Assembly (NCBI GenBank): GCA_034670405.1
Contig: JAXDDX010000004.1
Span: 5,314,001 to 5,378,000, forward strand
DNA from: Hoplostethus atlanticus
Taxonomy: Eukaryota > Chordata > Actinopteri > Trachichthyiformes > Trachichthyidae
Length of the DNA: 64,000 bases
Direction of reading: 5' to 3'
The notes below the pieces were generated by a model. That model worked only from the letters and a program-made list of their open reading frames with translations. It was not told where the DNA came from and made no database searches. Position 1 is the stretch's first letter, and each line of letters starts with the position of its first letter. A program made the position numbers and the translations under genes. Shown here one piece after another: positions 52,001-59,800 of the stretch.

Positions 52001-52655
52001 TTGAATAAACCAGACAAGGCAGATGGATCAGAAGCTACCAATTAATCCTGACTAACTTGGTAAAATTAACTAACTAACTAAGTAACTAACTAGAATAAAT
52101 GACTACTTTAAGATATTTTAGTTCTTTATTATGAAATGTAATATGCCTTATTCCCCCTTCTGTACTTATTCAGCCAACTTACCTGCCTACAATTTCAATG
52201 TACACGACAGCTGGAGTGGATTTTTCGACTACATCTGCAATAAAGTTGTATTTAAAGCGGGGGCTGTCAGGTTTGTAGGGAGACGCGCACTGGGCTGATC
52301 GCAGAATATGTTCAAGAACCGACCCAGAAAATGATGCTCTCTTGTCGCTCACTTGTTCGTCGTTTTTACTGTCCAAAAGTGCTACACCACAAAGTCCCAA
52401 ACCAACGGCCACTGACTTGAGGAAACTCCCCCGGCCCCTGGTACTACTGCCCTGACCACCTCCTGCCTTCCATGTAGGAGCTCTTCTGTCAATGCATGCA
52501 GTTCCGTCGCTGCCTTTTGTCCTTTTGTCACATATCAAAACGGACGACACTCGGTCAACAGTTCTTTCGGCCACAGAGTTAAAACCACGTCTCTGATCTC
52601 GAGTGTGCCTCCTGAGGAACGAGAACAAACAACGATTGACAACATGTGAGGCCAT
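49026..52655 (-). CDS. htra2: Serine protease HtrA2/Omi, mitochondrial, complete
   Basis: Mitochondrial intermembrane-space quality-control protease; in mammals the processed form also binds IAPs. Eight exons in transcript order: 52655-52183, 51901-51697, 51411-51217, 50914-50882, 50261-50153, 49909-49840, 49738-49643, 49191-49026 (stop TGA). All borders are GT/AG and phases join: 448 aa, human 458. An Arg-rich N-terminus without acidic residues in the first 18 positions fits a mitochondrial presequence; a hydrophobic anchor lies at about 79-95. [10 protein letters not shown] starts the mature protease at 136. Catalytic triad: His187 (TNAHVV), Asp217 (VADIAT), Ser295 (GNSGGP), each exactly 11 less than in human. 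A C-terminal PDZ domain lies at about 350-445. Exon 4 has only 33 bp yet carries the nucleophile. The AVPS IAP-binding tetrapeptide of human is not at the aligned place; CASPY is there instead. Not HTRA1/3/4: the IGFBP/Kazal region is absent. Confidence 0.96.
51421..51469. repeat. GA-rich tract beside htra2 exon 3
   Basis: Purine repeat on +, so on the htra2 strand it is a CT-rich polypyrimidine tract ending about 10 bases before the exon 3 acceptor TAG. It probably serves splicing. Confidence 0.8.
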
Positions 52656-53878: not shown

Positions 53879-56800
53879 ATGTTGACGTCATCGAAATATA
53901 ATGCCCGAATCAGCGAAAGAGTAGCATACAAAGACTCTGTACCTTTAAAAATGAACCCGTACAATACAATCACACCAGGCAAAGACTTAATATGGCAGCT
54001 GAAGGCAAACCGGGACCGCACGATTTACATCCCACCTGAGAACAGAGGATTACCTTCAATAACAACTCAAGATGCACTAAATGTCGCAAGTCACGTGGAG
54101 TCCACAATGATGGACGATGGGTCTTCGGTTTGTGGAGATCCAGTCTCTTTTCCCTTCCTGAAAAGCATGGAATCGCGTGACCATCCACTGCAACACACCC
54201 AGGCCCACTTTGAATCTCCTGCCAAGGTGTTTGCTAAGCTGAAATCCAAAGTTCAGAGAAGCATGGTGTGTGTGAAGGAGGGGCTCCAAACTGAGAAAGA
54301 TATGCTCTCTAGAGTTAAGGAGAATCAGGGAGCAGCATTCAACTCTCCTAGGAAGGGGAAAGGGAACATTTGGACAATTGAAAATATCAAGGAGACTCAG
54401 AGGTGTAATGTTTATCATGATGAAGCTGAGGCCCTGACTCTCTCACTTACACCATCTCCAAAGAAAAGCCAGAACTATATATTCTCTGACTTAAGCTGCA
54501 AACCTCTACAGGAAATGTCTCCTATGAAGGACATAGGACATTCTTTCAAGCCAAGAAATGGATACACACTGACAAAGCGACCTGTCCTGGAACCAACAGA
54601 TGTGCCATATCCCCTTATTTTGGTCAATTCAGATCAAACTCTGAGACCACCCCCTCTTTTCAGAGACTTGGATGTCTTTAAGAGGCCCTACAAAACTCCA
54701 ATAAAGGGTCAGCCATCTAATTTGTCTACAGAAGATGGCACTGGGTCACACGTCCACAGTAAGTTCTCACTGATTCCTTTAATTAAAGTTAACGCGCACA
54801 CACACACAAAGCCTAAGTCAACCAGACAGATGTCACTAATTCACTGATTTGTTTCACTGTTTGAACAGAGGCATATGTTTCTCTGGACAAACTTCCTCTG
54901 ATGTCCCCAGCCAAGATGTTTGCTCACATGAAGGAGAGGGAGAGGAAGAGAAAGTGGGAGCAGCAAGAGTTTTACAAAGTCAGCAGCAATACAAGGAAGC
55001 TCAGCAATGGAGGTGAGAATGTAGTGAAAGAGTGGAACATCTGCACCTTATGAAATTGTATTAGCTGATTAAAATCACTGATGTGGGTCCAGCAAATTAT
55101 GGTGCACCCATATTTTTGTCAGTTGTATTCGGGCCTTTTTCATTTGCCAACACACAGAGTTAATATTCCTTGTGTTGTTTGGATGAGCACCTATGGGAGT
55201 TGGTGAGGCCAGGGTTGCATGCTGGGGCTACCACAGGGGTACCTCCCTTTACAGAGGTTTTGTTGAATAAAGCCCTCTAAGACTTACACCTACAGTAGTT
55301 CACAATATTTCACCCAATAATTTCTAATGTTACTATTGGTCTCAGCAACAAACTCCCAATTGCATGGCTGACCCTCTTTAAATCGCCTGCCCTGCAGTTC
55401 AGAAACCCAATTTAAGTTTTACCCCGTTGTGGGAGACTAACATTTCCCAGATTATGTTTTAACGAATGCAGCATTTTGAAATGTAAGGAGTCATAAGTCC
55501 ATGCTCATAGCTTGTCTCTCTGTGTATCATGTCTTTTCATAGGCCCCACCTGTCAGCCACAGGACAGGCTAACCTCCACTGCTTTAGGTGAGGATAACAC
55601 TCACAACGACTCGAGCGTGGATGTTTTTGGCAGTGTTCCAGGAAGTTCATTTCCTGCCAACCAGTCAGAGATGAACCCATGCAGGCCTGATGCCACTGAT
55701 AACCAATCAGAGACTGATCCCAGTGATGACGTGTCGCCTCCAGCCGTAAAACGACGTCAAATCCTGGTAGAAGACCCGCTCCTTCACGACTCACTAGAGA
55801 CCTCCACCTTGAAGAAACGTGAGACAATGTTCATTCATCAACATCATTGCTACTCTTTTGTCAGTGAAACAACATTCATTCTCGCTTCCTCATTTTAGGG
55901 AATTGATTCGCTTGTTCAACCACCCCCATTAATTCCTTCACTCACTCATTTAGCTTTATTTGACTTCTCTGGCAGCATAAGGCTGTGGTCAGTCTGACAG
56001 ACATCACTAATGTTTTCTGCTCTCACTCTTTGAACAGAGTGTTATGTTCATCTGACAAAAGTTCCTCTGATGTCCTCAGCCAAGATGTTTGCTCACATGA
56101 AGGAGAGGCAGCAGCAAGAGGCTTACAAAGGCAGCAGCAGCACAAGGGAACACAGAAATGGGGGTGAGTGGGTGTGAGAAATGTTGAATCCAGCAAAGCA
56201 CTGTGCACCAGAATTAAGTTTCTCTTCTGCTATTTATGTATTTTAGCCTAGTTCTTGTTTTGGTTTACCCATGTTGCATAGCATGATGAGTGGAGTACAA
56301 AATCCAATCGTCATGTTCGTCATGTTCATCATGTTCGTCATGTTTCCAATTTCAAGTCATGTTTCCTGTTTGTTTTTAAAAATGTAATGATTATTTGTTT
56401 TTCTCTATAGGTCATAGCTGTCCGTCTCGGGACAGCCCAGCCACCACAACATTCGATAGGGGTGTGCTGGAGGATGACACATCCTTGAATGCTGGTGGAA
56501 ATCCTTCAGGAAGGGCATTTCCTGTCAACCGTTCCCAGTTGGAGGTGGCTGACAGCCAATCAGATATTGATCCTAGTGATGACGTCCTGCTCCCCCCTCT
56601 GAAATCACGACCTGCTCTGGTAGAAGACCCACTTGTCATTGATTCGCCACGCATCGCCTTCCCAAAGAAACGCGAGGCTGTGTTCAAGCGCAACACACGG
56701 CCCTCCAACGTGAGTAGAACCTGAGTTAAGAAATAAATGCTTTATTTTATGGTCAATTTTAGACTAGAACTAGATATCAACAATGCACAATTTTCCTTAT

Positions 56801-59800
56801 TGAGTTTGTGTTTCTCTCTGTCTGACAGGCAACAGAGGTTTATCTCATGAAGTGGTCGATGAAATGTAATCGTAATGGCCTGTATGTTGATGGAATCCAC
56901 AGGTAAGTGCAGTTGGAAACTATAACATGACCAAACTCTTTAGGTGTTTTGTTAGGTGTGAGAGGTTTCCATAGAGAAAAAAGAAAAAAGTTTGTAATTT
57001 TGATAGAAAAGCGAGAGTTAACTTAACTACTTACACCTAACCATAGTTCTCTGATACAGTGTAATGCACGATTTCTTTCTAGGTCTTAATCTTCGGTGCA
57101 ATTAACTTGAATACTGCTTTTTCTCCAAGGGAAGACAATATTCCATGGCACAGTAACATCATTGTGGAGAGGGTTTCTAAGTCTGTGCTGAAGACTGTCT
57201 CTGGAAGGACTTACATCTTGGTTGGCAAGATGAACAAGGACGTTGATTCTGGTAAACCAGTAGCACAATGAGGATATTATGAACATTCACGACAGTAAGA
57301 CAAGCTTATGCTGATACTAAATACGGTATGCACTAATATTTGTTGCGGTTGCTTTTGTCTTTTCCTTTGCAGAGTTGCCAAAGTGGCTTTTGAGGAAGTT
57401 TGTTTATGGTTTCCCTCCAAACTGGAAGATGTATTATGAGAAGTTTCTGTCAGAGTCAAGAGAGTAAGATTATTAATTTCAATCCATGGATATCTAAAGT
57501 GATTGATATTGAGTGGAAACCGTATCTACAAATACTTAGTTTGTTGCTTGTTACCAATATGAGGTTTTCTGATGAACTATTTTTTGTTTGTTTGTTTTGA
57601 CATTAGTAATCCCAGCATGCAAGCAGAGAGGAGCAGTAAAGGGAGAGGCACAGTGGCCTGGCCAGCGTCTGAGAAACCCGCCACCAACATCTATTTGAAA
57701 TGGCTTGGGCCCAGGCCTTTAAAGACACGTAAGTACAGGACAAATGCTCCAGAACTCGATTCAGTTGACTAATACAATACATGTCCAGGAATACTCTGTC
57801 TTTGTGACATGGATGCAGAGACACTGACAAATTAGGTTCAGTACATACTGACACACATGGTGCAAGGACAACCCGACCTCATGCTGTGCAAAGGGACATT
57901 GCAAGAAGTCAGTGGAAGGTAGACTATATGTGTCTCCTGTCCTACCTCCGTCATTCATGGGGGTTTAGGGATCTATAGTTCCTACTAGTGTTTTTGTTTG
58001 TTACTCACATTATTTATTTTTATTAAAATTAAATGATGTATTGGAAGCCAGTGCAGAATAAGTAATGCAATAGTTAGTTTTTTTAAATTTTAATTCTACT
58101 TATTCTCTCCTTAGCTGTTTCCTGTCCTCCTACCACCTCCTCTTTGCCCAGTGATACGAAAGTGTCTCGAAGTGGTCGGGTGATTAAGCCACCTCTAGAG
58201 TATTGGAAAGGAGGGCGGGTCACCCTGGACGCCAACATGAACGTCACCATCCATGACGGTTATGATACCACCATCTGCAAAGCCTGTAAGCATCCAATGA
58301 TACGTTCACATGGATCACACAATAGTCCAGAATGTAATGAGTCTGTCTGGTCACCCTTCTCTGCAAATTGATCAGATCAAACGATATAGTAGCACTTGAC
58401 ACTCAACAATGTGGCGATGGTTTATTTCTACATCTTGCAGCAGGTCACTTCACCGGTCTCCAGAAGGCCGTCACAGAGACCTACCAGGGTGTTCCTGCCC
58501 TGCAATGAAGGTAAAGATACAGAAATACTGCAGTTCTACTACTGTGTGAGTTGTTGTTGTTGTTGTTGTTGTTGTTGTTAGGTGCATGCTTACAAAGTGC
58601 CCTCTATTTCCAGGCTCTAGTAGCAACAATGAGTCATCTGTACCCCTGAGGAAGGTCAAGACCTCACACCGCAAACGTAACAGAGCCAAGGCCAACCTTG
58701 AGAAGAAGTCCTCCAATCAACTTGAACTTCCTGAGGAGGCACTGACCAGTCACATTAACAGTCCCGAAGAATGGTGTGGCATAACCACAAGGTCCAGCCA
58801 AAGGTGTCGAGTCACACAGACAACCTCTTATACAGATCGTGTCCCTCAACCTCAAGTTCAGCCCAATCAGAGCTCAAAACTGTGGTCAAAAAAACTGAAT
58901 TGCCATCATGACACCGGCACCTCCCCTGTGAGTGTGTTGCTGAGGAAACCGAATATGCCAGCACCCGCTGAACCTCCCACAGTTGATGATAAAGCATCAA
59001 CATCAGGGGACGAGTTTTCCATTACCAGGAAGAAGAGGGGAAGGGAGGTGCACAGGAGATGGGACAGGAAGGTTCCTAAAAAGTCACAGCCAAGTCACTT
59101 GTCTCCACCGAGTCAGCCAGCGAGTTCCTCAGAGGACAGCGGGAGGGCATTAAGGAAGAGAACCGCTGTTTCAAGAACGAGTGACGCTGCGCAGAAATCG
59201 AAGGTGCATAAACAAAACAAATGCAACAAAACATCGCCACCTCCAAAGCCTGCACCCAGGCTGATCCAGTCCAGCAAGAAAAGCAACAAGGGAAACAAAA
59301 GTGTAAGCAGTAACAAAGTGATTACACAAGAGAAAGATGAAGACGAGTGGACTGAGTCAGAGCTTCTGAGGCTGCAAGAGTAAGTTTCATATTCTCACAG
59401 GACAATAAACCTTTTACAGAATTGGAGTAATGCATTCTGTATCATAACTCTTTATCTCAATACTCTGTGTGTGCTTGTGAATGTCGTTCTGTGTTTTCTA
59501 GGGCTGTGACCTCCTGCCCGAAGCACATGGGGAGCTACTGGGTAAATGTGGCCATGATGGTTGGTACACGCTCTGCAGAAGAGTGCCAGAAACAGCACAC
59601 ATCCCAGGGGATCTTCCAGGCCCCCACTAAGAGACCCAAGAAATCCAAAAAGGGGGAAACGATAAAAGAGCCAGGTAGTGAGGTTCACTGGTTTATGTTT
59701 GCATTGGGATGTACAGTACTGTGCAAACTAGGCACCCTAGATTTTTCTAAATACAAATTTGGTCTTAGTTGTTTGTGTGTGTTAGTGTGTCAGAATTTTT

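Follow-up and report, generated by a model that had tools for sequence, protein, structure and literature searches.

The mis18bp1 locus

The window, that is, the whole stretch of 64,000 nucleotides that we analysed, contains a gene whose model, limited to exons 1–9, is open for 711 residues and has only GT-AG introns (Table 1). The product carries a SANTA domain (PF09133, 73.6 bits against the cut-off of 21), in agreement with the first-pass annotation of this DNA, which had named the gene mis18bp1. A single SANTA match was obtained in the whole 633 Mb genome and there is one full DNA match for mis18bp1, hence the locus is single, and a second mis18bp1 locus was rejected on these two counts. 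The protein of exon A, one of the exons described below, matched the genome only at its two known places, the next matches having E values of 3.5 and 6.7. In the one exon examined for a SANT/Myb domain, PF00249 scored 13.5 bits (E 0.079), under the cut-off of 24.4. Further downstream, a candidate CENP-C-like motif (RSGRVIKPPLEYWKGGR) was read by eye against the consensus of PMC4830207, with neither a Pfam match nor statistics behind it; such a motif in M18BP1/KNL2 was known before, being reported there for fish and some other vertebrates and as missing from mammals.

Elsewhere in the window there are exons with a HIF1A-type bHLH domain and with C2 and C1 domains of the PKC type. On the minus strand, an open reading frame at 52179–52655 lies head-to-head with mis18bp1; it looks HtrA-like by eye, and Pfam was blank for it up to E 0.01.

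Table 1. Features of mis18bp1 in window coordinates (aa, residues of the modelled protein)
Feature	Position	Strand	Basis or remark
Exon 1, coding, phase 0 to 1, aa 1–293	53879..54758	+	open frame, donor
Thr40-type motif NTITPGKDLIWQL, aa 29–41	53963..54001	+	alignment with provisional human 1–143; T40 literature
Ser110-type motif of exon 1 HFESPAKVFAKLKSKVQR, aa 110–127	54206..54259	+	alignment, 18-mer scoring
3' end of intron 1, like 3' end of intron 3 (~55988–56037)	54819..54868	+	38/50 ungapped columns
Exon 2 (A1), phase 1-1, aa 294–341, SPAKMFAHMK, Ser-Pro present	54869..55012	+	
Interspersed repeat stretch in intron 2	55282..55412	+	similar copies at 7 other genome places
Exon 3 (B1), phase 1-1, aa 342–433	55543..55818	+	
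First 25 nt of intron 3, like exon 5 coding tail from 56672	55819..55843	+	
Exon 4 (A2), phase 1-1, aa 434–475, SSAKMFAHMK	56038..56163	+	18 nt shorter than A1
Exon 5 (B2), phase 1-0, aa 476–575; last exon before the SANTA exons	56411..56709	+	
Exons 6–8 with introns, SANTA domain aa 579–660	56829..57463	+	PF09133, E 1.8e-20
CENP-C-like motif RSGRVIKPPLEYWKGGR	58168..58218	+	by eye; no Pfam match

Tandem duplication of an exon pair

The interval 54869–56709, in which the first-pass annotation had seen a tandem duplication of two exons, coincides exactly with exons 2 to 5 and the introns between them. We find that one exon pair is indeed present twice in tandem, A as exons 2 and 4 and B as exons 3 and 5. 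At the protein level, A1 and A2 share 30 of 43 aligned residues (raw local score 132) and B1 and B2 share 33 of 88 (raw local score 151), and in neither case did any of 2000 shuffles score as well. At the DNA level, the A copies have 102 identities over 137 columns, 18 of which are gaps, and the B cores 61 identical positions out of 85, again with no equal among 300 shuffles for either pair. In the core of exon A 49 of 51 nucleotides are the same in both copies, silent sites included, and the first 20 nucleotides of the exon differ at 8 positions. By our count the two units contribute 140 and 142 residues, close to the earlier figure of about 140, and they are placed, as that annotation had it, between the Mis18-binding N-terminus and the SANTA domain.

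The likeness of the introns before the A acceptors, which had been noticed for TTTGAACAG, turned out to be wider: approximately 50 nt upstream of both acceptors can be aligned (0/300 shuffles as good with the alignment anchored at the acceptor), and when introns 1 and 3 were aligned locally without an anchor only 3/300 shuffles did as well. Introns 2 and 4 had no likeness beyond chance in local alignment (62/300), their 3' ends (62/300) and 5' ends (67/300) likewise being at chance level, and for introns 3 and 5 the best local score was equalled in 58/300 shuffles. The copies of the intron 2 repeat at other genomic places are 72–85% similar, and the corresponding intron of unit 2 gave no such match; this repeat explains a part of the difference in intron length, 530 vs 247 nt. 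Intron 4 also contains a short (TCGTCATGT)4 array at 56308–56344.

Viral contigs searched for relatives with exon 1 only yielded none. In a non-exhaustive search at the level of titles and abstract openings we found no account of exon duplication in M18BP1, and a literature search with the motif strings matched no paper.

Phase conflict and its probable resolution

The earlier claim of matching phases holds for exon A, which is 1-1 twice, and for the start of exon B, and fails for the end of exon B, where the final phase is 1 in B1 and 0 in B2. Because exon A begins in phase 1 but B originally closed in phase 0, simple repetition as A-B-A-B would disrupt the frame; joining a plain B2-type end to exon A indeed runs into a stop, either at codon 441 of 601 or at codon 452 of 613. 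The donor actually present in B1, AAC/GTGAGA, fits 7 of 9 consensus positions, as many as the donors of exons 1, 2, and 4. The homologous place in the second copy (exon 5) is coding and reads AACGCGAGG, with CGCGAG opposite the donor C/GTGAGA, and the GT of this donor arises by a single C/T difference at a CpG. For this reason 'KKRE' drops out of the protein blocks formerly listed as shared: in unit 1 the exon stops within the Arg codon, the protein reads KKQ, and the bases of 'RE' enter intron 3.

When the first 25 nt of intron 3 are anchored to the tail of exon 5 at the homologous base, the score is 15, and none of 1000 shuffles equals it; with the donor bases excluded 10/1000 shuffles do as well, with the anchor shifted by two bases 1/300, and free local alignment misses the likeness (59/300). 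Judged from the aligned copies, coding bases of B1 have been turned into intron via a donor inside the exon.

The likely course of events may be described as follows. In a single-copy fish mis18bp1, a segment that began some 50 nt before exon A and ended inside exon B or slightly beyond it would have been duplicated in tandem long ago, and the reading frame would have been restored by an in-frame donor within the first copy of B, whose last coding bases would thereby have become intron. Whereas the present sequence is read directly, the order of duplication and donor use is something that we infer.

With the B1 donor in use exon 3 cannot join exon 6: such a transcript, retaining unit 1 alone, would shift frame and stop at codon 447 of 569, whereas the one with unit 2 alone is open. 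Exons 2, 3, and 4 are all of phase 1-1, hence skipping one of them or a pair preserves the frame, and of ten exon combinations tried seven are open. This leaves some room for the units being alternative cassettes, one of which is picked at a time by splicing, the more so as tandem exon copies can serve as mutually exclusive alternatives (PMC9741552). However, unit 1 alone stops, all seven open combinations include exon 5, and the three that lack it stop, so we hold alternative use of the cassettes to be improbable. Either-or splicing in the strict sense was rejected on grounds of phase, since unit 1 by itself, as the frames are predicted with the present donors, cannot substitute for unit 2.

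Age of the duplication

The first-pass annotation regarded the growth of the protein as recent and named evolution of the centromere-drive type as one possible cause. For the silent divergence between copies 1 and 2 (NG86, 113 codons) we obtained 0.50 (95% 0.32–0.76) over all codons, 0.71 (95% 0.42–1.13) in exon B and 1.47 (95% 0.66 to unbounded) in the B core; exon A gave 0.17, and the first 22 codons of this exon 0.04. By exon B and by introns 2 and 4, which can no longer be aligned, the duplication event thus looks old, and for these parts a recent origin was rejected because of their divergence. The same two observations make an assembly artefact, which that annotation had named as a way to be refuted, very unlikely, and it was dropped since the units are too divergent.

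The sameness of exon A at silent sites suggests a later gene conversion or a constraint on the DNA itself. There are 0.5 silent differences per 14.0 sites in the A motif block and 16 per 24.8 sites in the B core, a contrast reached in 1 of 5000 permutations (2/5000 for the motif block against all remaining sequence, 18/5000 for the whole of A against B), although the borders of the block were chosen post hoc, once the alignment was known. It is therefore quite conceivable, if somewhat short of an even chance, that exon A stayed nearly identical through conversion, or through a DNA-level demand such as a splicing enhancer, and not through the importance of its helix, exon B then giving the true age. 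The intron ends beside A1 and A2, which are alike when introns 2 and 4 are not, fit this explanation. The eight differences in the first 20 nt of the exon fit it poorly, and conversion is moreover compatible with function and may even maintain it.

The ratio dN/dS is 0.66 overall (95% 0.39–1.06), 0.19 in the B core (95% 0.00–0.48) and 1.6 in the first half of B (0.78–4.33). The value of 3.7 for the A motif, being based on 0.5 silent differences, was set aside, and with it positive selection in this motif. On positive selection in general, and on drive, the pair comparison gives nothing firm. It has been reported that Mis18bp1 is among the fast-evolving kinetochore proteins of mammals (PMC11230421, in a table row with 0.7227 and 5.073e-12 under unlabelled columns), which would favour recent growth by centromere drive; given the age of exon B and the introns and the lack of a firm dN/dS excess, we consider this very improbable. 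Taken together, the gene, its position and the tandem duplication proposed in the first-pass annotation stand, 'recent' does not, and drive is left without firm support.

A Ser110-like motif in the duplicated unit

The human N-terminus is reported to bind Mis18-alpha:beta via two regions, one containing the CDK site T40 and the other the CDK site S110 (PMC5245964, PMC5452045). Residues 109–130 of human M18BP1 have been modelled as a short helix in the Yippee pocket of Mis18-alpha, formed by L83, F85, W100, I110, V172, and I175, with S110 at the interface (PMC11315898). As the human reference we used a provisional sequence of residues 1–143, in which T4, T40, and S110 agree with the published positions. 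This stretch aligned with fish exon 1 across both motifs (score 71, 0/2000 shuffles as good), and in its comparisons with A1 and with A2 one shuffle out of 2000 was as good in each case.

The own motif of exon 1 is SPAKVFAKLK at aa 113. The motif of A1 starts at aa 306, with the Ser-Pro CDK site at its beginning, and that of A2 at aa 446, where no Pro follows the Ser and the Ser-Pro is absent; in both, the pattern K-hydrophobic-F-x-x-M/L-K is present. Among 52,259 18-mers from six frames of the window, A1 and A2 were the top two non-self hits of the exon 1 18-mer, and with the provisional human Ser110 18-mer as the query they ranked 2 and 6. The pattern S[PS].K[IVLM]F..[LM]K, written after the sites had been seen, occurs at these three places only in the six frames. 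Local alignment of fish exon 1 is modest both with A1 (16/2000 shuffles as good) and with A2 (30/2000), and for the DNA of exon 1 against the region of exons 2–5 it was 11/300. A structure predicted for A1 from the single sequence, with no alignment, has a helix at positions 13–42 of 47 residues (mean pLDDT 79.8), the Ser being residue 12 and the helix going from the following Pro onward. The two A motifs lie approximately 190 and 330 residues past that of exon 1, beyond the N-terminal 140 residues and so outside the known Mis18-binding region. Within the duplicated units it is the A motif that differs least between the copies. Of the 'binding site' proposed in the first-pass annotation we retain that exon A appears to repeat a Ser110-like element of the same protein.

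Among solved structures fish exon 1 had no relative, its sole match being a CTP synthase at E 1.1, and the provisional human N-terminal stretch had none up to E 1. In exon 5, VIDSPRIAFPKKREAVFK (56635–56688), a Ser-Pro tail that has no counterpart in unit 1, ranks fourth among the Ser110-like 18-mers of the modelled protein. In exon 1, QEMSPMKDIGHSF at 54509–54547 (aa 211–223) is Thr40-like and takes second place among the 13-mers of the modelled protein with either reference, yet it is too weak to be claimed as a second Thr40-like motif.

Possible consequences for Mis18 binding

A search of the genome with PF03226 gave four matches. The candidate for Mis18-alpha (L009) has 7sfz as its best PDB match (1.2e-17), and five of the six pocket residues named above are identical in it, L83 being replaced by V (counted by hand from the human chain). 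The acidic cluster by the pocket is partly kept, with an ED pair displaced by one position towards the N-terminus and Gly in place of the human Thr; the published numbers of this cluster disagree with our hand count on the 7sfz chain. By eye, L010 is Mis18-beta-like, and L011 and L012 are ypel-like.

Our best reading combines the old tandem duplication of A and B, the frame repair by a donor inside the exon, and an increase in Mis18 avidity by three Ser110-like elements; as a whole we give it a chance approaching even, and hence hold it tentatively. The protein would carry such elements at aa 113, 306, and 446, the third lacking Ser-Pro, where one has been described, and three of them would most likely raise the avidity for the Mis18-alpha:beta hexamer. 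The hexamer is reported to contain four Mis18-alpha and yet bind two M18BP1, and the same study raises the question of whether Yippee domains of Mis18-alpha that stay free could take up more (PMC5452045); extra helices on one chain could occupy such surplus sites. Phosphorylation of Ser110 by CDK1 reportedly weakens binding of the human element to Mis18-alpha. A1, with its Ser-Pro kept, could stay under CDK control, and A2, having no Pro, presumably could not be controlled in the same way. Whereas the sequence, the phases and the likeness of the motifs are observed, Mis18 binding, avidity and the loss of CDK control in A2 are what we infer.

The cassette could also be genuine and yet have lengthened, with no effect on function, the linker that joins the Mis18-binding N-terminus to the SANTA domain, the resemblance to Ser110 being partly chance or decayed ancestry. 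In favour of this are exon B, which mostly differs between the copies, a dN/dS whose interval extends to 1.06 overall and which reaches 1.6 in the first half of B, and the missing parts, Ser-Pro in A2 and the SPRIAFPKK-type tail in B1. Against it, both units have kept open frames and usable splice sites although they diverged strongly, the B core appears to be under constraint, and the A motif has changed least, so that we find a neutral linker unlikely, while giving it an appreciable share. Contacts by several Ser110-type helices could have a further effect: if M18BP1 gripped the hexamer through them and A2 were free of CDK1 control, its recruitment, and the timing or amount of CENP-A loading, might be partly uncoupled from mitotic exit. 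This extension of the avidity reading is speculative, and we would not expect it to hold.

CDK1 control of the contact between M18BP1 and Mis18 is reported to be a crucial gate limiting CENP-A loading to early G1 (PMC5245964). Extra copies of the contact, one of them without the CDK site, would offer a natural test of whether copy number and phospho-control set centromere size and timing. The locus is also a clear case of a tandem exon copy that ought to break the frame and yet can be read via a donor inside the copied exon.

Comparison with known systems

As in residues 1–140 of human M18BP1/KNL2, fish exon 1 has a Thr40-like motif followed by a Ser110-like one, in the same order and with a spacing of 81 residues vs 70 in human. 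Unlike the human protein, that of the fish has two further Ser110-like motifs, one in each copy of exon A, ahead of SANTA. Among the partners of the Mis18 hexamer HJURP, too, has a repeated module: its repeats R1 and R2 are reported to be interchangeable in Mis18 binding, the tandem binding better than a single repeat (PMC6731319). HJURP is, however, a different protein and its site on Mis18 is near the C-terminal helices. As for the gene structure, novel introns in Drosophila are reported to have arisen when coding sequence was duplicated in tandem and intronised (PMC2891723), and there too coding bases of one copy became intron via an in-exon donor. In contrast to that system, the fish gene would have reused the existing acceptor of exon A, and the gain corrects a phase conflict.
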